A stretch of 45,873 bases of DNA from Candidatus Omnitrophota bacterium (GTDB taxonomy: Bacteria; Omnitrophota; Gorgyraeia; Gygaellales; JAMWDD01): contig JAQUNK010000009.1 of NCBI GenBank assembly GCA_028717645.1, forward strand, positions 1 to 45,873, given 5' to 3'. Below the pieces are notes generated by a model. The model ran no database searches. It worked only from the letters and a program-made list of their open reading frames with translations, and had not been told where the DNA came from. Shown here in pieces: positions 7,894 to 33,401 of this stretch. Made by a program: the position numbers and the translations under genes. Each line of letters begins with the position of its first letter. Positions within the stretch are counted from its first letter, which is position 1.

Positions 7894-8802
7894 ATGACCT
7901 CTAAATTAAAGAAGGCTTTCAGCATTGTTTTGTTCCTATTCGTTTTATTAGGAAAAGCTTTTGCTCTTGAAGCAACCGATATCCTGGGAATGGTAAATTT
8001 AAACTGCATAGACTTAAGGGTAATCGGTGTATGCGTAAATCCTATTGGTATCCCTGGGATCGTAATCATGTATTGGGAACCTGCCCTGCTCATTGAAACC
8101 GTCAAGCGCCCGGGCGACACGGTAATCGATTCGTTAAAACCGGTTATCGTTGATATGGCAAGCCAGGGAACTAAAAGCCTAATGTCCGGGTTTACCGGGT
8201 TGCCTGTAGGGGTTTCAAGCGGATCCAGCTCTAGTAAGATAACCGGCACTAACCTGCAGTTTAATGAAGCGCACGTGTATGAGTTTCCATTCAGGGATGA
8301 GATTATGTCTTTTATCGATATGCAGTGTCCAGATAAATTACCAACAGGCCCATTTATCAAGTATCTATCGGAACTTGATTCAGCAGAGTGGCGTATAGGG
8401 GCTATTGAGGCTTTGCATCCAAAAAGCATTGCTTCAGCAGCTAGCGGTTTAACCTGCGCTGCCACTGGCGCCTTCCTGGATGATCTGTGCATGGGATTCT
8501 GGGGAGCGACTTACCCCAGACGCGGCTTTGTTACGCATCAGAGCGAAGTAGTGGGAAGCGCAATAGCTGCAACTAGGGCAGTAAGCATAGCTTCGCTTTT
8601 GGGTTCTATTTCGCACATTGTTTTAGAAACAACAGGTTTTATTCCTTCTTTTGAAAGCGATAAGCTGGAGTTAATCTATCCGAATCCAAGCGGTTGCATC
8701 AGAATAGGCCAGCACCCGGCAACCTGGGAATCAGGTAAGTTATCTTCTAGCGGCAAATATCTTTGGGTATATTGGAGAAGAAGAATATGCTGTATTTATT
8801 AA
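7894..8802 (+). CDS. traU: TraU-family mating-pair protein
   Basis: This 302-residue exported protein has a signal peptide (about residues 1-25, ending KAFALE). The sequence NLNCIDLRVIGVCVNPIG near the N-terminus and WGATYPRRGFVTH (about 204-216), followed by AIAATRAVSIAS, match the Cys-rich TraU family of F-type and ICE transfer systems. TraU is a periplasmic protein needed mainly for DNA transfer and mating-pair stabilisation. Several Cys are conserved in place, which fits the disulfide chemistry provided by the thioredoxin-like genes downstream. It overlaps the next gene by 16 bases. Confidence 0.72.
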   Translation: MTSKLKKAFSIVLFLFVLLGKAFALEATDILGMVNLNCIDLRVIGVCVNPIGIPGIVIMYWEPALLIETVKRPGDTVIDSLKPVIVDMASQGTKSLMSGFTGLPVGVSSGSSSSKITGTNLQFNEAHVYEFPFRDEIMSFIDMQCPDKLPTGPFIKYLSELDSAEWRIGAIEALHPKSIASAASGLTCAATGAFLDDLCMGFWGATYPRRGFVTHQSEVVGSAIAATRAVSIASLLGSISHIVLETTGFIPSFESDKLELIYPNPSGCIRIGQHPATWESGKLSSSGKYLWVYWRRRICCIY

Positions 8803-9326
8803 GTGTAGTCTTAAGTATTTTTATATTATTCAATCCCGCTTGTGTAATTGCGGGATTTTTCGATGAAAAAGATACTTCAATACAGCAAAGCGGTTGTAGC
8901 GACTGTCAAAGCCAAAAACTTAACTTGGATCCTGAATTAAAAGATAAAGTCGCAGCTATAGAAAAGAAAATCTCCAATAACCTCAATAAAAATACCAGCG
9001 GTAATGAGATTACCCTATTTATTGGCCTTAGCGACAGTTCCTTTGATCAAGCGGTTAATTCGTTAATCAAATTCAAGAATGACAATCCTAGCTGGGCGGT
9101 TAAAGGAGTTATTATTGGTGGCAAAAATAATTTAAAAGAGAAATTGCTTACGAAACAGAAGTTTTTTGGTAGCGGTGTTGAATTCAGCATTGACCTAAGC
9201 GGTAACCTTGCAAAAGAATTTAATATCCTTAAGACACCGGTTTATCTGATTACCTATAACGGCAGCCAGCAGAAAATAACCAGCCTGTCTGATTTTAATG
9301 GCTTCATATCAAGACTTAATAAATGA
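8787..9326 (+). CDS. trbC: TrbC-like thioredoxin-fold transfer protein
   Basis: I take the ATG at 8787 (GGAG about 10 bases upstream); a TTG at 8763 is possible but would put residues before the signal peptide. The 179-residue product starts with an export signal (MLYLLSVVLSIFILF) and has a CSDC motif soon after. A thioredoxin-like domain follows (EITLFIGLSDSSFDQAVNSL, VKGVIIGGKNN, EFNILKTPVYLITYN), typical of F-type TrbC, a periplasmic pilus assembly factor. It lies directly between traU-like and traF-like genes, an order seen in F-type and ICE systems. Confidence 0.65.
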   Translation: MLYLLSVVLSIFILFNPACVIAGFFDEKDTSIQQSGCSDCQSQKLNLDPELKDKVAAIEKKISNNLNKNTSGNEITLFIGLSDSSFDQAVNSLIKFKNDNPSWAVKGVIIGGKNNLKEKLLTKQKFFGSGVEFSIDLSGNLAKEFNILKTPVYLITYNGSQQKITSLSDFNGFISRLNK

Positions 9327-10051
9327 GATTATTTATTCTTGTGTTTATTATTTTTTTATCGCACCTTGCTTTGGCAAAAGCAGAAAACATCTTTCTGTAT
9401 AGACGGATTGATTTTTTCCAAGATATAGGAATACAACAAGAACCTGCAATAGCGCAAACTAATAATTCTTCCGAAGCTATCCAAGAAGAATGGGCTGAGC
9501 CGATAATTAGCCCTTCAGGTCGGGTAACTATCTATGTTCCGCCTAAAGAAGTAAGGGATTTTTTGGATAAGCCTGATCCGGAAAGCGCAAAGGCATACTT
9601 ACAGTGGAATTTAAAAAGGATTAAGAAATTCATCTTAGCCCAGGAATTGCTAAGGAGAGAAGCAAAGGAGCTTGAGGTAATGAAGGAAACTAAAGGTCTA
9701 CTTGAGCCTGATTCCAGCGATACTTTTAAAGATTCAGGAGGTGATGTTAAAACCGGAACAGGGTATCTGTTTTATTTCATGCTAAAAGGATGTCCAACTT
9801 GCGAGAAAGAATCCCGGGTGATAGAAGATATTTACCTTAACCACCCCGAAATCAGGATTGAGGCCTTTGCCAAAGGTTTCTCTGATAGGGAACTAGAAAA
9901 CCTTAGATTCTCAGCTATGCAGGATAACGGAATGAGCAGCCTTTTTAAAGTTAAATCATATCCGGCTATCGCGGTATTTAACAAGAGGAATAAGAGGTAT
10001 TTTTTGTCTGGGCTTATGGATAAAGATAGGATACTTAATCTTTTCAAATGA
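9323..10051 (+). CDS. traF: TraF-like periplasmic thioredoxin-fold transfer protein
   Basis: The 242-residue product carries a signal peptide (about 1-20) and a C-terminal thioredoxin-like domain from about residue 147: YLFYFMLKGCPTCEKES with a CxxC active-site-like pair (about 157/160) and the later VKSYPAIAVFNK segment. The middle part, ESAKAYLQWNLKRIKKFI, resembles the helical region before the domain in F-type TraF. TraF proteins help fold disulfide-containing Tra proteins in the periplasm. It overlaps both neighbours by four bases (ATGA-type junctions). Confidence 0.75.
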   Translation: MRLFILVFIIFLSHLALAKAENIFLYRRIDFFQDIGIQQEPAIAQTNNSSEAIQEEWAEPIISPSGRVTIYVPPKEVRDFLDKPDPESAKAYLQWNLKRIKKFILAQELLRREAKELEVMKETKGLLEPDSSDTFKDSGGDVKTGTGYLFYFMLKGCPTCEKESRVIEDIYLNHPEIRIEAFAKGFSDRELENLRFSAMQDNGMSSLFKVKSYPAIAVFNKRNKRYFLSGLMDKDRILNLFK

Positions 10052-11319
10052 AGAAAATCATTATATCTCTAGCATTAATCTTGGCATTAAGAAGTATAAG
10101 CTATGCCGATATCTTCTCTAAAGATAATGCCTCTAGCCCTTATACCATTGATAGCGCTATTTCCGAAGAAAGGACCGGATTCTATTACCGAGGAGGGCTT
10201 GATTATCATCCAAATGTGCCACCTGATGAGCCGGAAGTAGGTTATTCTATCCTATCTGGTTCAAAAGGATGCAGCGGTTTTGATTTAGCCTCAAGTTTTA
10301 ATAGCGTGCTTTCAGAGCAGATCCTATCGGATTATATGAAAGGTATCTCTAGCGAAGCCATGGCAGCTGCGCCAATGCTATTGTTGGAGTATGTTTCACC
10401 GACTTTAGCTGATATCATCAAACACTTTAATGCCATGACTAATATGCGCCTAGGCCTCAGGTACGCCCAATGCGAGGATATCGAGAAGGCGGCCGGCGAA
10501 TACATGGATAAGCTAAGGAAGAAAAGCGAAAGTGAGTGTGTTAAAGAAAAGGTCGGCACTGGTCTTGATATTGACTCAGCGCTTAAGGCCTGCAAAGAGA
10601 ATAAAGACCCCTTTGCCTTCCTGAAGAATGCCGAAGGCATTCCCTTGGCACAGGGAGGCAAAATTGACGTCCTGTCTGATATCTTTAAGAGAATAAGCAT
10701 CCCTGATGAAAGGAAAGATTTTGTCAAATCAGTGGTGGGTGAGACTACAATCACCGCATCCCAGATTGAAAACAACAAGGGCGAAAAATCCATCTACAAA
10801 GTAAACGATGAATTCAGGACTGATACCTCTAATAAGCTGTTTTCCCTTACGGATGAATACTTGAATTCAAAAACATTATCTAGCGACTCTTTGAAAGAGC
10901 TATCTTTGCCCAACAATCCCGTAACAGAAGAGCAGATTAGAAACATCACCTTAATGCCCAAGGCAAAACAGTACATTGCGGTTTCCAAGCTATCTTCTGA
11001 CATAGCTTATTTTAAAACTATATCTCAATGCAGACAGGCAATGGATGACCTGTTGGAAGCTATGCGCGCGCTAGGATTGGATGATGTGCAGAGAGGCGTG
11101 CTTCAGCGTGATTATGATTACCTGAAGGAAAAGCTGGAGAGGTCTAAGGAAGAGAGGCAAATCTACAAAGACTATAACGAAGCCGTGGCGGGTATCTTAT
11201 CGGAATCAGAAAAAGAAAAACTCAATACCATCATAAATGATGATGGGACTACTTCGTATTTCAGCGATTCTACTGAAACACAGGATAAAAAAGAAATGTA
11301 TCTGCCTGAAGAGAAATAA
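10048..11319 (+). CDS. traH: TraH-like pilus/mating-pair assembly protein
   Basis: This 423-residue protein has a signal peptide (about 1-20). Its N-terminal pattern FYYRGGLDYHP, then CSGFDLASSFNSVL, AMAAAPMLLLEYVSPTLADIIKHF and the YAQCEDIEKAA segment resemble the TraH family of F-type and ICE transfer systems. TraH acts in the periplasm or outer membrane in pilus extension. The C-terminal third is predicted coiled coil (RDYDYLKEKLERSKEERQ). It is the last gene of the transfer module here and is followed by an intrinsic terminator. Other transfer genes (TraB, TraC, TraG, relaxase) are not in the window. Confidence 0.7.
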   Translation: MKKIIISLALILALRSISYADIFSKDNASSPYTIDSAISEERTGFYYRGGLDYHPNVPPDEPEVGYSILSGSKGCSGFDLASSFNSVLSEQILSDYMKGISSEAMAAAPMLLLEYVSPTLADIIKHFNAMTNMRLGLRYAQCEDIEKAAGEYMDKLRKKSESECVKEKVGTGLDIDSALKACKENKDPFAFLKNAEGIPLAQGGKIDVLSDIFKRISIPDERKDFVKSVVGETTITASQIENNKGEKSIYKVNDEFRTDTSNKLFSLTDEYLNSKTLSSDSLKELSLPNNPVTEEQIRNITLMPKAKQYIAVSKLSSDIAYFKTISQCRQAMDDLLEAMRALGLDDVQRGVLQRDYDYLKEKLERSKEERQIYKDYNEAVAGILSESEKEKLNTIINDDGTTSYFSDSTETQDKKEMYLPEEK

Positions 11320-11743: not shown

Positions 11744-11776
11744 GGAAGTTTTGTATTGTTAGAAGTGAGGTGCACA

Positions 11777-12520
11777 TTGAATAAAAAAGCGTTAGTCAAA
11801 GAGTACGCGGGAAAACATCGATATTTTTCTTTGTCGCAAATTGCGCGGGATACGGGCCTGGATAGAAAAATACTGTGGGATTATTTGTCTCAATTGAAGG
11901 CGGATAAGGTTATTTTTGATGCCGGGTATGGCTGCTATAGCTCAATGGAGAAAGTGTTTATATTACCAACGGTAGCGCGCGCGCAAGATATTACGCAGTT
12001 TATTAAGAAAGAATTCCCGTTAGTCACTGATTTTGTTGTATGGGATACGAAGGCATTGCAATCCTTTTACCACCACACCCAGACACACCATATTACTTTT
12101 GTTGAGGTAGGCAAGGATGTTCTTCCTTCTGTTTATGATAAGGTATACCTTAAATTTCAGAATGTTTTAAGGGAGCATAGGTCTAAAGTATTTTTTAAAT
12201 CGTTTGATGTGACGCATGATCCGGTTGTTATAAGAGGATTGGTTTCCAGATCACCGCGGGTCGACCATGTTCCTACTTTGGAAAAAATATTGATTGATAT
12301 GTTTATGGATTTAGAAGAGTATAATTATATTGGTCGGATGGATTATTTGGAAATATGGCGGGAATTGATTCAAGAATATAGGATGGATATCCGTCTTATT
12401 CATGGCTATAGTAAGCGTAGAAAGTGCTTGGAAGGCATATTTTCACAACTTATTGATATAAAAGAGAGTTACGGTATAGAGTTTTGCCAACTACTCCGAG
12501 AAGTTGGTAAAACTCTATAA
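11777..12520 (+). CDS. AbiEi-like antitoxin/transcriptional regulator
   Basis: I choose the TTG at 11777, giving 247 residues, because GAGGTG sits a few bases before it; a TTG at 11756 and a GTG at 11765 are alternatives. The N-terminus is a winged-helix domain (FSLSQIARDTGLDRKILWDYLSQLKADKVIF), as in AbiEi antitoxins. The rest (FPLVTDFVVWDTKAL, HPVVIRGL-like DPVVIRGLVSRSPRV, VPTLEKILIDMFMD) matches AbiEi/DUF6577-type proteins. In this type IV system the antitoxin represses its own operon and protects against the AbiEii toxin without binding it. The toxin gene follows after 16 bases. Confidence 0.75.
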   Translation: MNKKALVKEYAGKHRYFSLSQIARDTGLDRKILWDYLSQLKADKVIFDAGYGCYSSMEKVFILPTVARAQDITQFIKKEFPLVTDFVVWDTKALQSFYHHTQTHHITFVEVGKDVLPSVYDKVYLKFQNVLREHRSKVFFKSFDVTHDPVVIRGLVSRSPRVDHVPTLEKILIDMFMDLEEYNYIGRMDYLEIWRELIQEYRMDIRLIHGYSKRRKCLEGIFSQLIDIKESYGIEFCQLLREVGKTL

Positions 12521-12536
12521 TTGTTAAGAGGATGGT

Positions 12537-13574
12537 ATGTTTGATAAAAATCAGATAGAGAGCTTACGAAAAGAGTTAAAAATCCGCGATCCCGGAATAT
12601 TTGAAAAGACTGTACGCGCCTTCAACTTGTTGGATGGGCTTCTTAAGGTTTATCCAGGGCTTATTTTTAAGGGTGGCACATCGATATTATTATACCAGTT
12701 TCCACCGGTACGCCTTTCGATCGATATTGATATTCTATTACCTGAGAAAGACAGGGAGCCCCTCTTGGCCAATTTTCAAGCAATTGCGGAAGCATCCGGT
12801 TTCAAGGCCGTAAAAGAAGATGAACGCCAGAGTAAGATCCCCAAAGCGCATTATAAATTTCGCTATGATCCGTTCTTTGGTCCGAGGGAGGATTCGATTC
12901 TTTTAGATGTTGTGTTTTGCGAGCATCCGTATCATAAGGTAGTTGAAAAATCTTTAAATGGATATCCATTGATTTGGTCTGATACGAATGTCGTTGTTAA
13001 AATACCTACAATTGATGGCCTCGTTGGGGACAAAATGACCGCGATTTCGCCTAAAACGCTTGGGCTTCGTTTGACCGAAGGCCGTGATATGGAGTATTTA
13101 AAACAAATCATTGACCTTGGGGTTTTGTTTAGCATGGCTGAAGATCTCGATGATATTCGGAATACGTTTAGTAAGACATGCGCTATGGAGAATGATTTCA
13201 GAAAGGCAAAATATTCTCAGGAAGAAATATTTGACGATATTCTCGAGGTATCTTTTCGGTATTCGCAATGGCTGCTTAAAGGAGCTGACAATTCGTTCAA
13301 AGAGATTGAAAGCATCAATAAGGGGCTTGAACGGTTAAGTAATCACCTTGTCGTACCGATTAGGCCTGATCATTTGAAGGTCGCATTTGCTAAGATTGCA
13401 TATATGATACGTTTGATGCGCGATACGAACGCATCAAAAATTATGAAAGATGTTAATTTGTCGGTTATTGACGGATTAGGTTTTGACGGTAGGTTTAAGA
13501 TTTTAGAAGGACTGAAGAAAATGAATACTCCGGCGTATTTCTATTGGGCCTTAGCTGTTGGGATAAAGAGCTAA
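12537..13574 (+). CDS. abiEii: AbiEii-like nucleotidyltransferase toxin
   Basis: This 345-residue protein has the nucleotidyltransferase core of the AbiEii/AbiGii family: KGGTS (Gly46, Gly47, Thr48, Ser49), then RLSIDIDILLP with metal-binding Asp63 and Asp65. The later lysine-containing motif is VGDKMTAI, around residue 163. AbiEii toxins transfer nucleotides to tRNA or other targets and cause abortive infection. The preceding gene is the matching antitoxin. Length and motifs look intact. A GC-rich hairpin follows the stop. Confidence 0.88.
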   Translation: MFDKNQIESLRKELKIRDPGIFEKTVRAFNLLDGLLKVYPGLIFKGGTSILLYQFPPVRLSIDIDILLPEKDREPLLANFQAIAEASGFKAVKEDERQSKIPKAHYKFRYDPFFGPREDSILLDVVFCEHPYHKVVEKSLNGYPLIWSDTNVVVKIPTIDGLVGDKMTAISPKTLGLRLTEGRDMEYLKQIIDLGVLFSMAEDLDDIRNTFSKTCAMENDFRKAKYSQEEIFDDILEVSFRYSQWLLKGADNSFKEIESINKGLERLSNHLVVPIRPDHLKVAFAKIAYMIRLMRDTNASKIMKDVNLSVIDGLGFDGRFKILEGLKKMNTPAYFYWALAVGIKS

Positions 13575-13765: not shown

Positions 13766-14204
13766 CTACTTCAATCATTCACTTCCTTTCTTGTTTTTTG
13801 TTTTCTCTTGCCGTCACGTAATCCTCCTTTCTTTTTATCCGCCTACAATAACCCAAGCCTGACTTTTGTGCAAGAAAATCCTTTGGAAAAATTCATCTCT
13901 ACCTAAAAAGCCTTTTCGTGGTTTGCCTCGGAAAGGCTTTTTTGGTATCAGAAGTATTCTGCCCCTTGCGGGGAGTCTCAATTTTTCCAAAGGACTCCAC
14001 TGATGCTCGTTCGCTTGGCGCTCACTCCCTTCGGGCATGCCTGTTTTCTTGACAAAAGACCGTATTTTCTGTGGTGTGCCTCAAAAAATACTTCAACTTC
14101 TTGGGTTTTAATTTTCGGCGTCAAAAGAAAGGAGTTTCACATGAGCCAAGAAAAAACAAAACAAAAAACAAATCGAAAGGAGGTGAGTAACATGATTGAA
14201 GTAG
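13766..14204 (+). ncRNA. Structured element copy 1 (candidate cis-regulatory RNA or ssDNA structure)
   Basis: This region has no convincing gene on either strand before spoVG, but it folds extensively. Outer arms: 13766-13778 with 14192-14204 (13 bp), 13780-13790 with 14175-14185, 13791-13804 with 14158-14171 (14 bp), 13824-13835 with 14123-14134 (12 bp). Then AACCCAAG with CTTGGGTT, and CTTTTGTGCAAGAAAA (13863-13878) with TTTTCTTGACAAAAG (14044-14058). Inside are 13880-13893 with 13980-13993 (14 bp), a hairpin 13902-13945 with loop TGGTTTGCCT, CAGAA-GTA-TTCTG, CCCC-TTGC-GGGG, and a hairpin 14062-14091 with loop TGGTGTGCCT. Copy 2 at 17689-18086 keeps the same helices with compensatory changes. 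The 3' arm covers both ribosome sites of spoVG. The family is not one I recognise. The strand is assigned + because the arm pairs with the downstream gene start. Confidence 0.8.
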
Positions 14205-14446
14205 CACGTATTTTCAAAGTAGAAAATAAAGAAGAAAGTACCCTTAAAGCCTTCGTAGACGTCAAAGTCTCCGATGTAGTTTTAATCAAAGGCATCCGGG
14301 TACTGGCTAAAAAAGAGGGTGGGCTGTTTGCAGCTATGCCTTCCAATTTAGCTGGTGACGGTAAGTATTATCCTACCGTCAAGTTTCTGACGGCCGAAGC
14401 CAATGAAGAACTACAAAAGGTAGTTCTTACGGCTTACGAAGCTTAA
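14192..14446 (+). CDS. spoVG: SpoVG-family protein
   Basis: The 84-residue product aligns by eye with SpoVG: IEVARIFKVENKEESTLKAFVDVKVSDVVLIKGIRVL, then GGLFAAMPS and YYPTVKFLTAEANEELQKVVLTAYE. SpoVG is a small site-specific DNA/RNA-binding regulator found well beyond spore formers. I choose the ATG at 14192, right after GAAAGGAGGTGAG, because it begins the conserved domain. An in-frame ATG at 14141, also with a ribosome site (AAAGGAG), would add a 17-residue Lys/Gln-rich extension (MSQEKTKQKTNRKEVSN). Both ribosome sites lie in the 3' arm of the structured element. The modifier gene follows. Confidence 0.88.
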   Translation: MIEVARIFKVENKEESTLKAFVDVKVSDVVLIKGIRVLAKKEGGLFAAMPSNLAGDGKYYPTVKFLTAEANEELQKVVLTAYEA

Positions 14447-14448
14447 GA

Positions 14449-14487
14449 ATTAAAAAAGCTGTCCTATCGGCTATACGGGGAGAAAGA
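14449..14487 (+). promoter_or_regulatory. Repeated leader motif, copy a (upstream of the ubiquitin-like gene)
   Basis: The sequence GCTGTCCTATCGGCTATACGGGGAGAAAG sits between spoVG and the modifier gene. It recurs almost unchanged at 17374-17410 before another small gene. AGC/GGCT-type pairing forms a small hairpin whose one differing pair changes from a T-G wobble to T-A. The end of the motif supplies GGGGAG, about 12 bases from the start codon. It may be a translation control or RNA-binding site. Confidence 0.6.
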
Positions 14488-14495
14488 TAACTAAA

Positions 14496-14729
14496 ATGAA
14501 CTTAAACGAACTGAAAAACGAGAAGATCAACGTAACCATCGCAGGAGAAGAGGTTGAGGTAAAAAGAAGCGATTCCGTAAAGGACACCCTAACAAGGATC
14601 CTTCAGGAGAAGGGAATTGATTCCTTTACCATCCTGGTTGACGGCGCAGAAGTTACTTCAACCGATAACCTGCCAGCTACTTTTGACGGCCATGATATCG
14701 AAGTGGAAAAGTACGTCAAAGCAGGTTAA
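14496..14729 (+). CDS. Ubiquitin-like (beta-grasp) modifier protein
   Basis: This 77-residue protein has the beta-grasp order: two strands (KINVTIAG, EEVEVKRS), one helix (DSVKDTLTRILQEKG), strands FTILVDGAEV and DIEVEKYV, and a short free tail ending Lys-Ala-Gly. Modifiers usually end in Gly-Gly; a single terminal Gly also occurs in bacterial families such as those of PRTRC and related cassettes. The three following genes encode E2-like, E1-like and JAMM proteins, so this is very probably the substrate that is adenylated and conjugated. A 17-bp terminator-like hairpin follows directly, which may give more modifier than enzyme. Confidence 0.82.
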   Translation: MNLNELKNEKINVTIAGEEVEVKRSDSVKDTLTRILQEKGIDSFTILVDGAEVTSTDNLPATFDGHDIEVEKYVKAG

Positions 14730-14735
14730 AGCGTT

Positions 14736-14779
14736 AAGCCAAGAGAGGGAGAGAATTTTCTCCCTCTCTTGGCTTTTAA
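14736..14779 (+). terminator. Strong hairpin between modifier and E2-like gene
   Basis: AAGCCAAGAGAGGGAGA (14736-14752) pairs perfectly over 17 bp with 14759-14775, leaving a 6-nt loop, and TTTT completes it. It has the form of an intrinsic terminator. The next gene's ribosome site begins immediately after, and the operon continues in the same direction, so partial termination or mRNA end protection is the likely effect. Confidence 0.8.
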
Positions 14780-14792
14780 AGGAGAAAGAAAG

Positions 14793-15380
14793 ATGATAGA
14801 TACAGAGCTAATAAATAAAGCCAAGAAAAAATCAGGCCTGATTGAGCAGATTGACGCTGCCTGGCGGGAATTCGTAAACAGACTCAGAGAAAATACCTTT
14901 AGTATCCCTTTTAAAGGCGAATACAGCTGTATGATTAAAGACAGCGACATGTTTGTTGAAGGTTACTCTGGCCTACTTCTCATAGATAAGCTGTATTATA
15001 ACCATAAAACTTATTTCTTGAAGAAGCCTATTAAATATTACCCTTTTAAAATCTACGGCGTATACGGCGAAAGGGGAAGCTTTACGAATTTTGTAACTGA
15101 TCCGGAAATAGGCTTTCATTACCTTGGCTTAAGCGATAAAGGACACTCAATTTGCACAGGAGATATTCAATACCTTAATCCTGAATCCTTAGGCCTGCTC
15201 AAAGAAACTGCTCTTAAGATAATCAGAGCATTCCGGGTAATCAATCTTGAATCCTTGGGAACGGTCATCCTTCCGGAAAGTTACTTAAACCTTAAAAACA
15301 TCTTTTCCAATAAGGATGAAGACGCAAAGCATAAGTTTGAAAAACTGCTTGGTCAAAACCTCATTGAGGAAATCATTTAG
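14793..15380 (+). CDS. E2-like conjugating protein (PRTRC-B/RWD-like), tentative
   Basis: The ATG at 14793 follows AAAGGAGAAAG, giving 195 residues; the frame is open upstream to a TTG at 14769 but that lies in the hairpin. Residues 80-127 resemble the E2 core: PIKYYPFKIYGV, then DPEIGFHYLGLSDKGHSICTGDIQYL. His109 and Cys121 would correspond to the HPN-type His and the catalytic Cys of the G-x-I-C-x-D motif (here GHSICTGD). PRTRC protein B, thought to be E2-like, has a similar GRVCLGSM motif. Position between the modifier and E1-like genes strongly supports the role. Overall similarity is too low to be certain by eye. Confidence 0.6.
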   Translation: MIDTELINKAKKKSGLIEQIDAAWREFVNRLRENTFSIPFKGEYSCMIKDSDMFVEGYSGLLLIDKLYYNHKTYFLKKPIKYYPFKIYGVYGERGSFTNFVTDPEIGFHYLGLSDKGHSICTGDIQYLNPESLGLLKETALKIIRAFRVINLESLGTVILPESYLNLKNIFSNKDEDAKHKFEKLLGQNLIEEII

Positions 15381-15393
15381 AAGGAGAAAAAAC

Positions 15394-16377
15394 ATGCCTG
15401 AACAAGCGATTTATGAACGTCAAAACTTAATCAACGGCCTGGAGATTCCGCAGACTGCTTCTGTTGTAGGCTGTGGAGGCACAGGTTTTTGGACCGCTTT
15501 ACTTCTTGCAATGTCCGGCGTAGAAGATTTAATCCTGATTGATTCTGACATAGTTGAAGTATCCAATCTAAACCGGCTTTTCTTTGAAGAAACCTGCGTA
15601 GGCAAGAAGAAAGCGGAAGCATTAAAGAATCTAATCCTAACAGTAAGAAAACAGGTCAGGATTGAAATCCATGACATGCGCATTGAAAAACCTCTGGACT
15701 GTCAGGTTTTAAGGGGAGAGATTTTCTGCTGTACAGATAACTTAAAAAGCCAGCAGATTATCTGCGCTTATTGCAAAAAGAACGAGTTTGCCTATCAAAG
15801 AATAGGCTATGACGGCACGATCCTGAATGTCTCCAAGACATTCCCGCTTTCCTTTAAGGAAGTAGAACAGCAGGGTTATACGGTAACGCCTTCCTGGGTA
15901 ATCCCAGCGGTATTTGCCGCGGCAGCAGGAGTATCTTCCAGAATATACAAAGAATTATGCCTGATGGATGATCTAGGTAAACTCCATATACAGAAATCTT
16001 CCCACATCTGTAAAAAAATCCTAGATGACGCAAAGAAAGAAGAACGGGAGTACATCGAAGAGAATATCAACGATTTTATTCCTGATAGTTACGGTTATTG
16101 TGATGACTGCGATAGAATTAACCCTGATGATTCCGATTACGGCTACTGTCCGGATTGCAAGAGAGTAGATCCCGAAGACGGTTGGGCGCGCTGTTCTGAA
16201 TGTGATGAGCATTATACTGAAGATGATATTGAAGACATAAAAGAAAAGGCAAAGAATGAGGAGTATGACAGGATAATCGAACAGCTTGAAACAGGCGCGC
16301 TTAGAGACCCAAAACTTATCGCAGCCCTTAAAAAATGGGGAGAAAGGAAGGAGGATACAAAAAATGTTAGAAAATGA
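15394..16377 (+). CDS. E1/ThiF-like modifier-activating enzyme with zinc ribbons
   Basis: The ATG at 15394 is preceded by AAGGAG; the frame runs further upstream but into the E2-like gene. The 327-residue protein has the ThiF/E1 Rossmann nucleotide site VVGCGGTGFW (Gly26-Gly31), LIDSDIVEVSNLNRLFF with Asp50, Asp52, Asn58, Asn60 and Arg61 for adenylation, and CCTDN (Asp115). Candidate catalytic Cys are 112, 113, 124 and 127. The C-terminal part adds three CxxC pairs (236/239, 252/255, 267/270), a likely zinc-ribbon region. It should adenylate the 77-residue modifier's C-terminus and pass it to Cys121 of the E2-like protein. It overlaps the JAMM gene by 14 bases. Confidence 0.88.
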   Translation: MPEQAIYERQNLINGLEIPQTASVVGCGGTGFWTALLLAMSGVEDLILIDSDIVEVSNLNRLFFEETCVGKKKAEALKNLILTVRKQVRIEIHDMRIEKPLDCQVLRGEIFCCTDNLKSQQIICAYCKKNEFAYQRIGYDGTILNVSKTFPLSFKEVEQQGYTVTPSWVIPAVFAAAAGVSSRIYKELCLMDDLGKLHIQKSSHICKKILDDAKKEEREYIEENINDFIPDSYGYCDDCDRINPDDSDYGYCPDCKRVDPEDGWARCSECDEHYTEDDIEDIKEKAKNEEYDRIIEQLETGALRDPKLIAALKKWGERKEDTKNVRK

Positions 16378-17170
16378 TCTTCTAAAAAAGAGTAATATTC
16401 TGGAAGTAAAAATAAAAAACTACGGTGAATGCGGTTTCTGCAGCGACAGGGATAATCAGGAAACCTTGAAAATCCCCTGGAGTATCTGGAGTCAGTGGTT
16501 GTATATCAGCCAGTGCATGGGAGATAAGGAATGGGGCGCGGTATTCTGGGTTAAGGATAACACCATAACCAGCTTTAAAATTCCCAAGCAGGAGGTAGGT
16601 TCAGTAGACTGTGAATTCAAGGAGGAATTGGGCGGTGACGGAATAATCCATTCGCACCATGATATGGGAGCGTTTCATTCTTCGCAGGATGATGCCCACG
16701 CGCGCAATCTCTACACTTACAGCATTGTTACCGCTAATTCAAAAGGCAGTATTGCTACCAAGAGGGTTAAACTTCCTTGTAAAGGCTTTGGCTACGTAAA
16801 AATAAGCTTGCAGTTGGTTGAATTGCCTGCGATAGACCTTTCAAAGATAAGCGAAAGAATAAGGGAATTGATTCCAGAGGCGAACTCAGGATTTGAGGAA
16901 AGCGAGTACCCTTGTGATATTTGTCAGACCGGTGACTGCGAAAATTGTGAACACTCAGGTATGCCTTTTCTATCTTGTCAGATTTGTAATATTTTTAAAT
17001 GCAAATCCTGCAAGGCAACTGCCGGCCTGGAGATTCGGGGAGTGCTTCCTTTTTGCGAGGTTTGTAATGGTTCTGAAACTTGCGCTTCCTGCGAAAAAAT
17101 CGCAAAATATCTTAAAAATTACCCTGAGGAGCGAGGACGCTTGCAAACTCCAGCTGAAAGTCAATCGTGA
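16364..17170 (+). CDS. JAMM/MPN-type isopeptidase with cysteine-rich C-terminus
   Basis: I start at the ATG at 16364, after AAAGGAAGGAGG, giving 268 residues. The JAMM zinc site is complete: Glu56 (KEWGAVFWV), His96 and His98 (IIHSHHD), Ser106 and Asp109 (HSSQDD), with the exact H-x-H-x7-S-x2-D spacing. Such enzymes remove or process ubiquitin-like modifiers. From about residue 182 to 252 there are many CxxC pairs (CDIC, CENC, CQIC, CKSC, CEVC, CASC), so two or three zinc-binding modules probably follow the catalytic domain. It ends the cassette; two inverted repeats lie downstream. Confidence 0.88.
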   Translation: MLENDLLKKSNILEVKIKNYGECGFCSDRDNQETLKIPWSIWSQWLYISQCMGDKEWGAVFWVKDNTITSFKIPKQEVGSVDCEFKEELGGDGIIHSHHDMGAFHSSQDDAHARNLYTYSIVTANSKGSIATKRVKLPCKGFGYVKISLQLVELPAIDLSKISERIRELIPEANSGFEESEYPCDICQTGDCENCEHSGMPFLSCQICNIFKCKSCKATAGLEIRGVLPFCEVCNGSETCASCEKIAKYLKNYPEERGRLQTPAESQS

Positions 17171-17229
17171 AGGTTTATAAATACGCTTGCCCCGCCCTGC
17201 CTTTGTGGGTTTTTGGTTGTGGGTTTGGT

Positions 17230-17311
17230 TTGGGTGATTTTGTTTGGAACGAGCGTGCGGTAGCCTTCGAGAGGGTTGTTGACGAAATCACCCAAAAGGC
17301 TACCGCACGCT
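17230..17311. repeat. Two interleaved perfect inverted repeats after the conjugation cassette
   Basis: TTGGGTGATTT (17230-17240) is the inverse of AAATCACCCAA (17285-17295). The 16 bases 17252-17267 are the inverse of 17296-17311 (core GCGTGCGGTAGCCTT). The arms alternate a-b-a'-b', so both helices cannot form as simple nested hairpins. A terminator, a protein-binding or replication/transfer site, or a switch between two folds are all possible. The rest of 17171-17415 shows no gene. Confidence 0.7.
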
Positions 17312-17373
17312 ATTAGCTTTAAGTGCTTGGGGGTAAAGATAAATTATAAATATTGAATGTGTTCTGAAAAATT

Positions 17374-17410
17374 AATTAAAAGCTGTCCTACCAGCTATAC
17401 GGGGAGAAAG
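17374..17410 (+). promoter_or_regulatory. Repeated leader motif, copy b
   Basis: GCTGTCCTACCAGCTATACGGGGAGAAAG matches 14449-14487 with two substitutions, both in the small hairpin. It lies just before the ATG at 17416, and its GGGGAG acts as ribosome site. Confidence 0.6.
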
Positions 17411-17415
17411 GGAAT

Positions 17416-17616
17416 ATGAGAGTCGATAATTGGGTTGACGAATTAAGGAATCAGTTAAAAAGCTTTGACGAAGAAACATCGGGCAGTGAAATTAAAATGG
17501 CAGATATAACCCTTGGCTACATTGACAGGCAAGGCTTAATTCATTACCATAAAATTGAATACAGGGCAAAAGGGTTTGAGAAGAAGCCGGTCTCAAGCCA
17601 ATCACTACAGAGATAA
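17416..17616 (+). CDS. Hypothetical 66-residue protein
   Basis: This small acidic-then-basic protein (MRVDNWVDELRNQLKSFDEE at the start, ADITLGYIDRQGLIHYHKIEYRAKG in the middle) has no signal peptide, membrane span or known motif. It shares its leader motif with the modifier gene, so the two may be co-regulated. It stands alone between inverted repeats and structured element copy 2. Confidence 0.55.
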   Translation: MRVDNWVDELRNQLKSFDEETSGSEIKMADITLGYIDRQGLIHYHKIEYRAKGFEKKPVSSQSLQR

Positions 17617-17688: not shown

Positions 17689-18086
17689 CCATCCTCAAAT
17701 TTTCTTTTCTGTTTTTCCTTGTCGTCACGTAATCCTCTTTCTTTTTCCCGCCTACAATAGCCCAAGATTGACTTTTGTGCAAGAAAATCCTTGAGAATAA
17801 TTCCTCTCTACCTTGCACTTGTGGTCTGCCTCAAGATGCAAGGTATCAGAAGTATTCTGCCCCTATAGGGGAGTCTCAATTTTTCTCAAGGACCCCAGGA
17901 AACTCACTCGCTTGCGCTCGTTCCTTTCGGGCATACCTGTTTTCTTGACAAAAGCCGGCATTTCCTGGGTTGCCTGAAAATGCCTTCAAATCATTGGGCT
18001 TATATTTTCGGCGTCAAAAGAAAGGAGGCTCACATGAGCCAAGTAAAAAAAGAAATGTTAAAGAAAAACGAAAAATTTGAGGATGG
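17689..18086 (+). ncRNA. Structured element copy 2 (candidate cis-regulatory RNA or ssDNA structure)
   Basis: This is the second copy of the element at 13766. Helices: 17689-17703 with 18072-18086 (15 bp), 17734-17746 with 18016-18028 (one bulge), AGCCCAA with TTGGGCT, 17772-17787 with 17940-17954, 17789-17802 with 17878-17891, hairpin 17810-17844 with loop TGGTCTGCCT, CAGAA-GTA-TTCTG, CCCC-TATA-GGGG, and hairpin 17957-17984 with loop TGGGTTGCCT. Stem sequences differ from copy 1 but pairing is kept. The outer arm again pairs with the start of the downstream gene, and that arm sequence is specific to this locus. No credible gene occupies 17617-18033. Confidence 0.8.
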
Positions 18087-18327
18087 GGTGTTGCGCGCAG
18101 ATGCCTGTATGGAAAGGTATCAAAGCAGCCGAGATTCTCAATACAGAACGCATCAAGAGGATTTCCCGGAAGCTGCGTTCGGCTTATCCGCTCTCTGGGA
18201 AGAAAGAAATCTAATGAAGAACGTTTATAAGCTTATGGCGAAAGGATTTAAGCCAAACGGTTCTGAAAGCTTGGAATCCTTTGTTGAGAAGCACCAGAAT
18301 TTGCTTGATGAAGGAGGTGATTTTTAA
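18034..18327 (+). CDS. Hypothetical 97-residue protein downstream of structured element
   Basis: The ATG at 18034 follows AAAGAAAGGAGGCTCAC and begins with the same MSQ-Lys-rich start as the long form of spoVG. The product is helical and charged, with a region ADACMERYQSSRDSQYRTHQ and a C-terminal helix. I do not recognise it. The ribosome site and first codons lie in the 3' arm of the structured element. Its stop overlaps the next ATG (TAATG). Confidence 0.65.
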   Translation: MSQVKKEMLKKNEKFEDGVLRADACMERYQSSRDSQYRTHQEDFPEAAFGLSALWEERNLMKNVYKLMAKGFKPNGSESLESFVEKHQNLLDEGGDF

Positions 18328-24201: not shown

Positions 24202-24417
24202 ATGAAAGAACTCGTTAAGGCATTTACTGTAGAAGAGATAGCAGAATATTTGCGTCTGCATCCGTATACTATACGAAGATTGGCTAGGGAAAAGAAAATA
24301 CCGGCTTTTCGTGCTGGCGGCCAGTGGCGTTTTCGGAAGGATGATATTGGCCAGTGGTCGAAATCATATCCATTTGCGCTCGGGAATAAAAAATTAAAGG
24401 GGCAATGGCATAAATGA
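24202..24417 (+). CDS. Excisionase-type helix-turn-helix protein heading the defence operon
   Basis: This 71-residue HTH_17-like protein reads AFTVEEIAEYLRLHPYTIRRLAREKKIPAFRAGGQWRFRKDDIGQW, a winged-helix DNA-binding unit. GGGAGAA precedes the ATG. Its end overlaps the helicase gene by four bases, so it is co-transcribed with the defence genes and is probably their regulator. It parallels the 59-residue protein before the AbiE pair. Confidence 0.82.
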   Translation: MKELVKAFTVEEIAEYLRLHPYTIRRLAREKKIPAFRAGGQWRFRKDDIGQWSKSYPFALGNKKLKGQWHK

Positions 24418-27400
24418 TACAAAGTTTTAATAATAAAACCGAGAAAGTCGGAGATGATTTTAAAAAGAATATCGGTAAAGACAGCCGACTGCAAGTCGCG
24501 GCCGGCATTTTTACTATTTACGGTTTTGAGTGTCTCAATGTTGAATTAAAAAAGATCGATAAGTTAAGTTTTATATTCACGGATCCTACCTTTATCGAGG
24601 TTGATAAAAATAGGCGAGAGAAAAAACTATTTCAAATTAAAGCTGATTCCCGGCAAAAAGCCATTAGCGGGTCTGAGTTTGAAATAAATTTAAAGAACGA
24701 ACTTAAAGGGAAGGCAATCGCTAAAGAATGCAAGAAATGGATTGAGCAAAAAGCAATATTTAAAGCCAATATTGGGGATAAATATATCCAGCCGCATATA
24801 ACGCTTGAGAATGGTGAGAATAAATATGTGTATATGGGGATAAATGAATTTAGCAGTGCCGGGTTTGGCTATGAAAAAGACAATTCAATTTTGCACCAGA
24901 TCATTAAAACAGATGATTATGAAGCGACTAAGCAGTACATCCAAAATTTTGAAGAAGTTTGGAATGATGAAAAGATAGTAAAGAACGTGACCGACGAGGT
25001 TCTCGGATATATCGCGGACCTTTATAAGGAAAACTCCCCGGAATTTATCTATTACCTGACGCTCTATAATATCTTTGATGAGTTTTTGGAGGATATTTCC
25101 GAGGATGAACTTGCCAATGAGAAAACCGGCTTTAAGAATTCCGTAATTTGGAATAAGCTCTACGATTTTCAAAAAGACGCCGCTTTAGGAATTGTTAACA
25201 AATTAGAACGGCATAATGGGTGTATTCTTGCAGATAGTGTGGGCCTTGGGAAAACTTTTTCTGCCTTAGCTGTTATTAAATATTATCAGGAGAGAAACCG
25301 CACTGTACTCGTGCTTTGTCCGAAAAGGCTGGGAGATAATTGGCGGACTTTCTTGAACAATTATGACGACAATCCCTTGTTTAAGGATCGTTTGAATTAT
25401 CATGTCTTGTATCACACGGATTTATCCAGAGATCAGGGGCAATCAAACGGTGTCGATCTGTCTAGAGTCAATTGGGGTAATTATGATCTGGTCGTGATCG
25501 ATGAATCGCATAATTTTAGAAATAATGACCCTCGAAAAGATAGGGTGACACGATATCAGAGACTGTTGAACGATGTCATGAAGGCCGGAGTTAAGACAAA
25601 AGTTCTTATGCTTTCAGCGACCCCGGTCAACAACAGGTTTACCGACTTAAAAAATCAGATCGCTCTGGCCTGTGAAGGTGAAACAAATATTGCTGACGGG
25701 AGGATGGATACAGACAAATCGATCGATACCATCCTGACAAATGCGCAGAGAGTTTTCAATGACTGGTCAAAATTGCCGGTTGAAGAACGTACCAGCCAAG
25801 AGCTGTTGAAACGGCTTAATGCGAATTTTGATTTTTTTAAGTTACTTGACAGCGTCACAATAGCCCGAAGCCGAAGACATATAGAAAAGTATTACGATAT
25901 CAATAAGATCGGGAAATTTCCCAACAGGTTAAAACCGGTCACCCATCACGCTGATATTACAGAACTAGAAGGGTTTATTGAAATATCGGAGCTTTACAAA
26001 GAACTCTCGAAATTGTCAATGGTTATCTACTCTCCCACTGAATATATTTTAGACAACAAACGGCAATTTTACAGTGAAATTTACGACACAAAGCTCAACG
26101 GAGATTTTAGTTTTAAACAGGTTCATAGGGAAAGAAACCTCCAAACCCTTATGAGGGTAAATTTCCTTAAACGGCTAGAAAGTTCAGTGGATTCCTTCAG
26201 GATCACTCTTGGCAAATTTATCAGTGAGATCGAGCGGATTATTAATAAGATTGAGGAGTTCGAAAAAACCGGGGCTCAGGGATCGGTTGAGGCTATCCAG
26301 TTCGGCGATATCAATCTCGATGCTGATAGTGACGACTGGTTAAACGATGAATTTAGCGTCGGAGGTAAAGTTAGAGTTAACTTGGAGGATATGAATACAA
26401 CAGGGTGGAAGCAGGATTTGGAGGCTGACGTTCTTGTTGCCAAAGCAATATTCAGAGAGATGGAAAAGGTAACGCCCGAACATGATACAAAACTTAGAGA
26501 TCTAAAAGTATTCATCAAGAACAAATTGAGATCCCCTGTTAATCCTGGAAATAGGAAAATTCTGATATTCAGTGCTTTTGCGGATACGGTGAATTATCTA
26601 TACGAAAATCTTGCCGGGTACAATAAAACGCTTGGCCTTGAGACCGCAAAATTGACAGGATCAGATGAGAACAAGACCACACTAAAGTTAAACAACAACT
26701 TTAATAATATTCTGATCAATTTCTCCCCGCGATCCAAGGAGCGCAGAGATAAGTCAGCGCCGGAAATAGACGTCTTAATAGCGACGGACTGTATTTCCGA
26801 AGGACAGAACTTGCAGGATTGCGACATGCTGATTAATTATGATATTCATTGGAACCCTGTGCGTATTATCCAGAGGTTTGGCCGTATAGACAGGATCGGC
26901 TCAACGAATAAAGATATTCAGCTGGTCAACTTCTGGCCGCAGTTATCCCTTGATGATTATATAAATCTGAAAAATCGGGTTGAAAACAAGATGTTTATCG
27001 TTGATGCGACAGCAACCGGTGAAGATAACGTCCTGACGAATAAATCTTCGGATCTGTTATTTAGGAAGAAACAACTGGAAAGATTACAGGAAGAGATTGT
27101 TGATATCGAAGATATGGGTTCAGGCGTTTCAATTACCGATCTGGGGCTAAATGATTTCCGCATGGATTTAGTGAACTATATAAAAGATAGCGGGAGTCTT
27201 GCGAACGTTGCTAATGGGATGCATACGGTTTGCGGGAAAGACGTTGAGCGTGGGATTAAAGAAGGTGTTATTTTTGTCTTAAAAAATATTAACAGCGAAG
27301 TCAATATTGACAAGACCAATCAGCTTCATCCGTTTTATTTAGTGTACATAACTGCCAATGGGGAGATTTCTTCTAATCATTTGAACGTGAAAACCACGCT

Positions 27401-27659
27401 AGATATCCTTCGAGCGCTTTGTAAGGGCAATAGTGAACCCTTAAAAGACGTGTATGAAGTGTTTAATGATGAGACTGACGACGGCAAAAATATGGCCAAG
27501 TATTCTGGATTACTGAACAAGGCTATCGAATCCGTGCTTCATGTGAAAGATGAAAGCGACGTGGACAGCCTTTTTACGGCTGGAGGCACCACCGCGCTCA
27601 TGAACAATATAAAGGGCCTTGAGGATTTCGAACTCTTGACTTTTATGGTGATTAAGTAA
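24414..27659 (+). CDS. SNF2/superfamily 2 helicase-like ATPase
   Basis: The 1081-residue protein has an N-terminal region of about 250 residues, then both halves of a SNF2-type motor. Motifs are Walker A ADSVGLGKTFSAL (about 272-285), VLVLCPKRLGDNW, DEAH-type VVIDESHNF (about 361), LSATPVNN, and in the second half LIATDCISEGQNLQ and RIIQRFGRIDRIGS. Residues about 520-720 form an insertion. The C-terminal 200 residues are unrecognised. Such helicases occur in phage-defence systems, where they translocate on or remodel DNA. It overlaps the HTH gene and is followed by a DUF4391 gene sharing its last base. Confidence 0.9.
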   Translation: MIQSFNNKTEKVGDDFKKNIGKDSRLQVAAGIFTIYGFECLNVELKKIDKLSFIFTDPTFIEVDKNRREKKLFQIKADSRQKAISGSEFEINLKNELKGKAIAKECKKWIEQKAIFKANIGDKYIQPHITLENGENKYVYMGINEFSSAGFGYEKDNSILHQIIKTDDYEATKQYIQNFEEVWNDEKIVKNVTDEVLGYIADLYKENSPEFIYYLTLYNIFDEFLEDISEDELANEKTGFKNSVIWNKLYDFQKDAALGIVNKLERHNGCILADSVGLGKTFSALAVIKYYQERNRTVLVLCPKRLGDNWRTFLNNYDDNPLFKDRLNYHVLYHTDLSRDQGQSNGVDLSRVNWGNYDLVVIDESHNFRNNDPRKDRVTRYQRLLNDVMKAGVKTKVLMLSATPVNNRFTDLKNQIALACEGETNIADGRMDTDKSIDTILTNAQRVFNDWSKLPVEERTSQELLKRLNANFDFFKLLDSVTIARSRRHIEKYYDINKIGKFPNRLKPVTHHADITELEGFIEISELYKELSKLSMVIYSPTEYILDNKRQFYSEIYDTKLNGDFSFKQVHRERNLQTLMRVNFLKRLESSVDSFRITLGKFISEIERIINKIEEFEKTGAQGSVEAIQFGDINLDADSDDWLNDEFSVGGKVRVNLEDMNTTGWKQDLEADVLVAKAIFREMEKVTPEHDTKLRDLKVFIKNKLRSPVNPGNRKILIFSAFADTVNYLYENLAGYNKTLGLETAKLTGSDENKTTLKLNNNFNNILINFSPRSKERRDKSAPEIDVLIATDCISEGQNLQDCDMLINYDIHWNPVRIIQRFGRIDRIGSTNKDIQLVNFWPQLSLDDYINLKNRVENKMFIVDATATGEDNVLTNKSSDLLFRKKQLERLQEEIVDIEDMGSGVSITDLGLNDFRMDLVNYIKDSGSLANVANGMHTVCGKDVERGIKEGVIFVLKNINSEVNIDKTNQLHPFYLVYITANGEISSNHLNVKTTLDILRALCKGNSEPLKDVYEVFNDETDDGKNMAKYSGLLNKAIESVLHVKDESDVDSLFTAGGTTALMNNIKGLEDFELLTFMVIK

Positions 27660-28297
27660 TGGCTAGTGATAACTTTAAACTGCCTAAAACAGCTTTTGTA
27701 AATAAGTTTATCGCTAAGACTAAGTTTTATGAAAAGGCGGCTTTAAGCGCAAAGTTACAGAAAGAATTTATTGATAAAATTCAAAAGATTACATGGAAAT
27801 ACAAACTGGCGGAAAGTACCATTGGCATCACAAAGACAGCCAAGGTAACCGAAATACAGATATTTGAAATTGAGCTTAAAGAGCAAGTGATACCTAAAAA
27901 TGTTTTACGGATCATTGATAAAGCGATTCCCTATCAGATCCTGTATCGATTTGTTCACAAAGAAAATGTGGCGTATGCGGTCACACTAAAAGATAGCGGT
28001 ATAGAGAATTATTATTTTTCTAGCTGGAATGAGGACAAGAGTTTTGATTTTACCGGTATTGATCTGGAGAAGGTGTACCAGAAGATCATCAAGGCGTTCA
28101 TAACGAGTGAGGCAAAAGCAAAAACCAGTTTCAATGAAATTATAGATACTGACAATAAGATAAAGGCAGTAGAAAACGAGATTGGGGTTTTGGAGAACAA
28201 AATATCAAATGAAAAGCAGTTTAACCGTAAGGTTGAGCTTAACAAAATATTATTGGAGAGAAAATCCCAGCTTAAGAAGATTAAAGAGGAGTTATAA
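27659..28297 (+). CDS. DUF4391 family protein
   Basis: The 212-residue product starts FKLPKTAFVNKFIAKTKFYE and has KIQKITWKYKLAESTIGI and VLRIIDKAIPYQILYRFVH, features of DUF4391 proteins found beside SNF2-like helicases and type III restriction genes. The last 50 residues are coiled coil (NKIKAVENEIGVLENKI). No catalytic motif is visible; an adaptor role is possible. The gene starts on the last base of the helicase stop. Confidence 0.78.
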   Translation: MASDNFKLPKTAFVNKFIAKTKFYEKAALSAKLQKEFIDKIQKITWKYKLAESTIGITKTAKVTEIQIFEIELKEQVIPKNVLRIIDKAIPYQILYRFVHKENVAYAVTLKDSGIENYYFSSWNEDKSFDFTGIDLEKVYQKIIKAFITSEAKAKTSFNEIIDTDNKIKAVENEIGVLENKISNEKQFNRKVELNKILLERKSQLKKIKEEL

Positions 28298-28299
28298 AG

Positions 28300-30225: not shown

Positions 30226-30227
30226 GA

Positions 30228-33200: not shown

Positions 33201-33236
33201 TCGTATCAGGCGCTCCGGGACAAGGTGATGAAATAG
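30228..33236 (+). CDS. res: Type III restriction-modification helicase-nuclease (Res)
   Basis: The 1002-residue protein has the type III Res layout. Walker A is METGTGKTYVYTKTMYEL (about 85), the DEAD-like box is ILIIDEPQRF (about 209), and the motor's second half includes FIFSHSALREGWDNPNIFQI and SIISKRQEIGRGLRICV. Near the C-terminus SPDWAIVFDG (Asp about 934) and FIAETKGSM (Glu about 948, Lys about 950) form a PD-x-ExK nuclease site. Length and motifs look intact, so it is probably active with Mod. It is followed after one base by a zinc-ribbon miniprotein. Confidence 0.93.
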   Translation: MKLQFKHQQYQTDAASMVVRCFIGQSKGFRKEVAGRTGFFAHEIFSNKKLEIADSDILKNVQTLQKEQGLKVIDRLDGLNFTVEMETGTGKTYVYTKTMYELNKHYGWNKFIIMVPSVAIREGVHKSLEITAEHFQEIYGKKIRFSIYNTQNKSNLINIKSFADTSNIEVIIMNYQAFATTSQESRKIFQKLDTLQSEKPIDIIKRARPILIIDEPQRFGEKAEKIFSDREFDQLFTLRYSATHRRDFNKIYRLDAIDAYNQKLVKKISVKGIEVVGNSGTNSYLFLDRIQISTDKYPVAYVELEVKQASGIQKKTRQIKEKDDLYIFSNELKQYKGFVVKEINGLTNTVAFTNGVKLSVGQTAGHVDEEHVRRIQIRETIKSHIEKERIMFAKGIKVLSLFFIDEVVKYRDYSNPDQKGDYAQVFEEEYREAISQLNLFEEEYNKYLLGHRVEDIHKGYFSIDKKGHFVDSKEKKSEGGSDDESAYDLIMKNKEKLLDLKEPTRFIFSHSALREGWDNPNIFQICTLKHSQSIISKRQEIGRGLRICVNSNGDRMDTSVLEGEFFDVNKLTVVASESYDSFARELQIEIVESLSERPVKLTIDVLKDLVLSNDKGEKFIFDNQTSMDLIFDLKTKGYVNEAYQITDTLIKDISDKKYKVPEKLKGFETQVTDLLTKIYTTANFKAAENENANNVVVEVLTPNENFAKKEFQDLWKKIKVKTVYEVDFDSDELIKKSVEAIDKNLTVKKILVYITSGEQEDKMDETSLKSGESMRKQQNITEKADSLLGSLTYDLVAEIAKETNLTRRTVVKILQSLRVDTFHNFRVNPESFIHGVVHLINNEKAATLINNIVYSKTDQSYDDSVFTINNFKGSLADNILKVKKHVHDYVKTDSKVERDFAKALETEDVLVYAKLPRGQNGFQIPTPLGNYSPDWAIVFDGDKYKYVYFIAETKGSMESLQLKEVEQKKISYARKHFEALGHADIKYDIIDSYQALRDKVMK

Positions 33237-33237
33237 G

Positions 33238-33399
33238 ATGGATGATCTATTTGATGAATTTATGGAATACGACTTTACGATGGGATCGGATGTCGTGAAA
33301 TGCCCGCATTGTGGGGCCGACGTGTCATGCAGTTTGTTTTTCGATAATGAAGTTGAATGTCCTAAGTGCGGGAAGAATTTTCGGAAGGATGAGAAATAA
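33238..33399 (+). CDS. Zinc-ribbon miniprotein between Res and TrlF-like genes
   Basis: The 53-residue product starts MDDLFDEFMEYDFTMGSDVV and then carries two zinc knuckles, CPHCG and CPKCG, 19 residues apart, a classic zinc ribbon. It fits exactly between the Res stop and the next start, and resembles CPXCG-type small proteins. It may be a subunit or adaptor of the defence system. Confidence 0.75.
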   Translation: MDDLFDEFMEYDFTMGSDVVKCPHCGADVSCSLFFDNEVECPKCGKNFRKDEK

Positions 33400-33401
33400 T
33401 T

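Follow-up and report, generated by a model that had tools for sequence, protein, structure and literature searches.

The well-studied single-stranded DNA promoters, those of F and ColIb-P9, belong to enterobacterial plasmids (PMC9849209, PMC11541004, PMC8708921). The two F elements, Frpo1 and Frpo2, share 92% identity and are located ~5 kb apart, upstream of leading-region operons; their single strands fold so that the -35 and -10 boxes are rebuilt, and they are needed for early expression after entry into the recipient (PMC9849209). Anti-defence islands contain Frpo-like promoters as well as AbiE pairs, and leading-region genes of such kind lie on the transferred strand (PMC11541004). Frpo also primes DNA synthesis (PMC7736820). 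Searches for Frpo elsewhere have been guided mainly by sequence similarity or by promoter boxes (PMC9849209, PMC11541004, PMC8708921). In the pLS20-type system, EGeRS1 contains a strong double-stranded sigmaA promoter; the authors found no folded-form promoter in it, and found the wrong strand to be transferred (PMC8708921). Here we describe an element of Omnitrophota that is probably a Frpo-like single-stranded DNA promoter, unrelated to Frpo in sequence.

The element is present twice in the window, the whole 45,873-nt stretch of DNA that was analysed. Copy 1 is located at 13766-14204 and copy 2 at 17689-18086, both on the plus strand (copy 1 being oriented by the downstream spoVG-like gene) and both defined by blastn and covariance-model matches together with a DNA-level fold. 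The first-pass annotation had described these two copies as sharing a common architecture, and the coordinates, the ~80% identity and the complex fold were all confirmed. It had also placed the element before accessory genes of a conjugative-type element, which agrees with the F-type transfer genes that adjoin it: TraU, a weak TraF match and TraH are encoded upstream on the plus strand at 7894-11319, and secretin and pilus-type ATPase genes are also found upstream in the window. From copy 1 onwards the order is spoVG, a ThiF/JAB operon, copy 2, the F gene, DUF6876 and defence-related genes, with an AbiE-like pair preceding copy 1. The SpoVG-family gene (14192-14446, plus strand; Pfam SpoVG, E 1.7e-15) has an in-frame upstream start at 14141 that adds MSQEKTKQKTNRKEVSN. 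The operon that follows (14496-17170, plus strand) encodes a 77-aa protein, a 195-aa protein, a ThiF-family E1 and a JAB-domain protein; it is of the PRTRC-like or ubiquitin-like conjugation type with generic ThiF and JAB domains, and NCBIfam PRTRC models gave no match above the cut-off (a weak PRTRC_A match had an E of 0.002). Copy 2 lies upstream of the small F gene (18034-18327, plus strand), which encodes a 97-aa protein, conserved in an alignment of eight members. No Pfam or NCBIfam family matched the F protein, and its structure was predicted at low confidence (mean pLDDT 66).

The same context recurs in related genomes. Copies near F-type transfer genes have a uniform orientation and are often paired a few kb apart, and TraU was upstream of the element, on the same contig and strand, in all six genomes in which TraU was found. 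The element in the complete genome G180 is also accompanied by TraG, a coupling protein, TraC and ParB, which makes DNA transfer likely. No relaxase was found in the host genomes with PF08751, PF07514 or PF03432, and no oriT was located for the element.

Several further features of the region were observed. The AbiE-like toxin-antitoxin pair directly upstream of copy 1 (11756-13574) consists of a DUF6577 protein and an AbiEii nucleotidyltransferase, and defence-type genes downstream at 24414-36377 encode a DISARM/DrmD-like helicase, a methyltransferase, a type III restriction endonuclease and a TrlF-family ATPase. The region just upstream of the tandem copies in G180 (L104:7661-9083) has a second ubiquitin-like system, with a gene for a Multiubiquitin protein and, after it, one for an apparent E1-like protein. 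A second structured intergenic element at 17190-17335 has pseudoknot-like interleaved inverted repeats (GGGTGATTT ... GCGTGCGGTAGCC ... AAATCACCC ... GGCTACCGCACGC) and homologues in related genomes, the one in G102 showing the compensated change GGGTGGTTT/AAACCACCC; it is possibly another folded-DNA site, for example an oriT. A short conserved motif, AAAGCTGTCCTAYCRGCTATACGGGGAGAAAG, is located at 14458-14490 before the 77-aa gene and at 17382-17412 before a small ORF at 17416, and it recurs in seven related genome regions.

Further homologues, whose absence the first-pass annotation had named as a refutation, were found. Blastn of genomes of the same order revealed additional copies, and a covariance model made from 14 copies was then used to find further relatives, detecting two tandem copies in each of two blind, more distant genomes (G151 and G180) and a first copy in G102. 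This gave 18 copies beyond the two in the window, all in Omnitrophota, and 20 aligned copies in total. In a pattern scan of genome contigs covering 85,000 species, the relatives among the matches listed were confined to records titled Omnitrophota or Omnitrophica, and the listed matches outside the phylum were rejected as chance. Blastn of the element against plasmids and phages gave no match, and pattern scans of viral contigs gave chance matches only. Rfam 15 likewise returned no family for the window at the gathering threshold and only chance-level matches at a relaxed threshold, in line with the earlier statement that the fold belongs to no named RNA family. The element is real, new, structured, multi-copy and outside Rfam. 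Two of the copies, L033:8099-8297 (G016) and L028:8893-9069 (G032b), are apparently decayed and are not followed by an intact ORF of at least 60 aa.

The core of copy 1 is made up of a series of helices, given here in plus-strand coordinates. The 5' strand of P2 (13863-13878) pairs with 14044-14058, which includes TTGACA, and the 5' strand of P3 (13880-13893) pairs with 13980-13993. These are followed by the P4 hairpin (13901-13946), which has a recurrent GG-NNTG-CC tip over a T.T mismatch, by the P5 and P6 hairpins (13949-13973), and by the P8 hairpin (14062-14091), which again has a GG-NNTG-CC tip. The recurrent GG-NNTG-CC hairpin was considered as a genome-wide motif and rejected, the host genome containing only the copies within the element and two unrelated sites. 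Compared with shuffled sequences, the plus strand folded as RNA had z-scores of -10.9 (copy 1) and -7.0 (copy 2). The minus strand folded as DNA had z-scores of -12.3 and -13.5, forming a long, stable, imperfect hairpin, and the relatives were similar.

The compensatory changes previously read by eye between the two window copies were borne out. The P3 stem CCTTTGGAAAAATT/AATTTTTCCAAAGG becomes CCTTGAGAATAATT/AATTTTTCTCAAGG in copy 2, where two of the pairs are fully compensated and a single T.T mismatch is present; the hairpin at 13901-13946 is exchanged en bloc; GTATTTT/AAAATAC becomes GGCATTT/AAATGCC; and AACCCAAG/CTTGGGTT becomes AGCCCAA/TTGGGCT. The 16-nt helix that had been called invariant is so between the window copies only: among the relatives the TTGACA side is kept and its partner varies. 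Across the 20 aligned copies, double-sided changes were found in 23 of 49 modelled core pairs, most strongly in P3 (7 of 14 pairs changed on both sides), and whole stems were replaced en bloc with their tips conserved. There were 75 double-changed cells compared to 22 +/- 4 after shuffling (none of 500 shuffles was as high) and to a maximum of 28 when the structure was slid along the alignment; the alignment is biased toward the model, and close relationship among many of the copies makes these counts non-independent, but the effect is large and far above both controls. Paired changes can also arise by template-switch correction of imperfect palindromes.

The first-pass annotation missed that the two ends (13766-13857 and 14100-14204 in copy 1) are themselves a long inverted repeat, which spans the ribosome-binding site and the start of the next gene. 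The outer 90-100 nt on each side are imperfectly repeated. The 3' arm of copy 1 (14100-14204, plus strand) runs through the beginning of that gene, with the Shine-Dalgarno sequence at 14128-14134, the start codon at 14141-14143 and then the first codons. The 5' arm (13766-13857, plus strand) is an inverted, degenerate copy of it, with Watson-Crick pairing at 105 of 130 aligned positions, and can therefore pair with the Shine-Dalgarno sites, the start codons and the first codons downstream. In all 17 usable copies the 5' arm complements the start of translation of the gene that the copy precedes, with cis duplex z-scores of -3.6 to -10.7 relative to shuffled arms (-10.7 in copy 1). For most copies, genes of the matching type, whether spoVG or F gene, give a stronger duplex than genes of the other type. 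When the minus strand of 18 copies was folded, the Shine-Dalgarno sequence was paired at 5-7 of its 7 positions in every one and the start codon in 17, and pairing extended 45-147 nt beyond the start codon. The spoVG and F-gene families have near-identical N-terminal residues (MSQVK and variants). Since both families start alike, the element seems to bring its own ribosome site and start codon.

This complementarity would suit a fold-back mRNA leader, in which a transcript in the plus direction pairs its 5' arm with the Shine-Dalgarno sequence, start and first codons, turning translation off until it is opened by a protein, a ligand, an RNase III cut or a kinetic window. The arms matching their own translation starts in every usable copy argue for such a leader, as do the compensatory changes. 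SpoVG binds RNA in Listeria (PMC4959528), which makes autoregulation conceivable. We favoured this model on the arm complementarity and then demoted it on the strand tests described below; it also leaves the conserved TTGACA and the -10 arrangement at 16-18 nt unexplained, and we now regard it as unlikely.

A functional plus-strand RNA is expected to have more G.U than A.C oppositions in its stems and to fold better than its complement. Neither was observed. On the plus strand, G.U and A.C numbered 20 and 26 in the core stems, 105 and 114 in the terminal arms, and 9 and 28 in P2-P3, showing no G.U excess. Even with RNA energies the minus strand was more stable in 17 of 20 copies (p 7e-4), and with DNA energies the minus strand, which is the template of the next genes, was more stable in 19 of 20 copies by a mean of 9.0 kcal/mol (p 1e-4), many of the copies counted being closely related and hence non-independent. 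These results speak against the first-pass proposal of a new RNA class transcribed with the genes. Unbiased palindromes simulated on the same 3' arms gave a mean difference of -1.1 kcal/mol compared to +7.9 kcal/mol observed, and all 18 testable copies were positive and above the simulated mean; the sign was reversed in ordinary or random segments of the window (-4.4 +/- 3.6). Eight known elements, the Frpo1 and Frpo2 copies of plasmid F plus six relatives, served as the positive control, and in all of them the minus strand folded better by 7-15 kcal/mol. The bias is also seen in divergent lineages of the element, the exceptions being the degenerate G016 copy (a difference near zero) and G032b (reversed). 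By analogy with Frpo, the strand pattern matches that of folded single-stranded DNA of the template strand. The computed energies suggest that it is the minus strand that folds, from which the downstream genes are transcribed.

The folded strand also carries promoter-like boxes. In copy 1 the proposed -35, TTGACA (14049-14054, plus strand; its complement is on the folded minus strand), pairs with TTGCAC on the non-template side (13868-13873, minus strand) with one bulged base. A 17-nt spacer separates the -35 from the proposed -10, TATTGT (13845-13850, minus strand, non-template side), which falls in the loop between P1 and P0. Copy 2 has the same arrangement, with TTGACA at 17945-17950 (plus strand), TTGCAC on the non-template side at 17777-17782 (minus strand) and TATTGT at 17754-17759 (minus strand) with a 17-nt spacer. 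When the non-template side of the folded minus strand was searched without constraints for sigma70-like sites, the best site was at a common structural position in 19 of 20 copies, with a spacer of 16-18 nt; in the exception, G018, extra hairpins are inserted at the site. The -35 takes the forms TTGCAC, TTGAGC, TTGAGT, TTGAAA, TTGAAC, TTGATA or TTGACG, and the -10 the forms TATTGT, TATTTT, TATACT, CATTAT, TACAAA or TAGAAA. The scores are modest, with per-copy p values of 0.007-0.22 (apart from G018), most of them not significant singly, and the W1-type -10 matches just 4 of 6 consensus bases. TTGACA is exact in 16 of 20 copies and the strand paired opposite to it varies, reading TTGnnn in many forms. 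From the position of the boxes, transcription would start a few nt before the Shine-Dalgarno sequence, ~20 nt before the start codon. The decayed G016 copy has the best promoter match of all (TTGATA-16-TATACT).

On the plus strand the two boxes are separated by P8. TTGACA lies 65-107 nt from the Shine-Dalgarno sequence in all copies because P8 intervenes, which suggests that the promoter is not contiguous in double-stranded DNA, although weak linear matches with poor -10 boxes persist there. In the folded template strand, P8 forms a three-way junction within the spacer of the predicted promoter. This junction counts against the promoter reading, as do the modest scores of the boxes and the negative searches for a relaxase and for sequence similarity to Frpo.

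Strand bias and inverted-repeat structure would also fit a folded-DNA site that does not transcribe a gene. It could be a single-strand origin or a site that primes second-strand synthesis, or else a protein-bound cruciform or a site of recombination. The en bloc replacement of stems fits such a site, and the apparent covariation would then be due in part to template-switch correction of imperfect palindromes; Frpo itself primes DNA synthesis (PMC7736820). However, nearly every copy finishes at a ribosome-binding site with its start codon, in one orientation and before two gene families, and the promoter-like boxes have a fixed spacing. These features favour a role in gene expression, and we consider a folded-DNA site of another kind rather improbable, a little more so than the fold-back leader. 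A structured antisense RNA that starts in the downstream gene and runs away from it on the minus strand would show the same minus-strand fold bias, but is very unlikely, as the minus-strand promoter-like boxes would be near the far end of such a transcript rather than at its start, and Frpo elements share the bias though they are not RNAs.

The fold, its strand bias, the covariation and the transfer-gene context were established computationally. If the element is a single-stranded DNA promoter, the minus strand, from which all the neighbouring genes are transcribed, would enter the recipient as single-stranded DNA during conjugation and fold back into the long hairpin that we computed for it. 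The stem would thereby rebuild a double-stranded sigma70-type promoter, in which the -35 (TTGACA/TTG(C)AC), the 16-18 nt spacer and the TATTGT-like -10 in a partly unpaired loop are read from the sequence and are assigned a putative function. RNA polymerase would start close upstream of the Shine-Dalgarno sequence, and transcription of spoVG from copy 1, or of the F gene from copy 2, would precede second-strand synthesis. In the double-stranded state the hairpin would be lost and the P8 insertion would part the -35 from the -10, presumably silencing the promoter. More speculatively, the arms over the ribosome-binding site and first codons might act as a return strand and displace the new mRNA from its single-stranded template, which might in turn free the ribosome-binding site.

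We propose, more tentatively, that the element may represent an independently evolved class of single-stranded DNA promoter on F-type conjugative elements of an uncultured phylum, with a hairpin that includes a gene-matched return strand over the ribosome-binding site and first codons. If true, promoter, ribosome site and start codon would travel together as a portable cassette, active only as single-stranded DNA and interrupted by a hairpin when double-stranded. This would suggest that gene expression from the entering strand is a general, repeatedly evolved step of conjugation, and would mark SpoVG, the ubiquitin-like operon and the F gene as first-expressed establishment or counter-defence genes. 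Covariation by itself is no proof of RNA; combined with strand asymmetry, it provides a test by which single-stranded DNA promoters can be found without sequence similarity.

In the hok mRNA and the leader of the MS2 maturation gene, the ribosome-binding site is paired with a complementary stretch far upstream, and a multi-helix domain lies between the two. The element resembles these fold-back leaders in having an upstream complement to the ribosome-binding site and is unlike them in that the strand evidence disfavours a plus-strand RNA. It resembles EGeRS1 and EGeRS2 of the pLS20 type as a long, repeated non-coding sequence before several establishment operons of a conjugative element (PMC8708921); unlike in EGeRS1, the promoter-like boxes meet only in the fold. 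The closest likeness is to Frpo (Frpo1/Frpo2, ssiD) of F and to ssi2/ssi3 of ColIb-P9, which are likewise long, imperfect intergenic hairpins of ~300-400 nt. In sequence the two appear unrelated, blastn having given no match in plasmids and covariance model R2 no match on Frpo loci. As with Frpo and ssi, there are two copies a few kb apart, before small establishment-type genes and beside an F-type transfer system (PMC9849209, PMC11541004), and the gene-template strand folds better and is predicted here to rebuild -35 and -10 boxes in its stem (PMC9849209, PMC11541004). The element differs from Frpo in its host phylum, Omnitrophota, in a first gene that is spoVG-like or the F gene rather than ssb, and in its several side hairpins, which have a GG-NNTG-CC tip and of which one is inside the spacer. 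In F, the Frpo2 hairpin ends ~50 nt before the start codon, whereas the arms of this element run through the Shine-Dalgarno sequence and the first codons.
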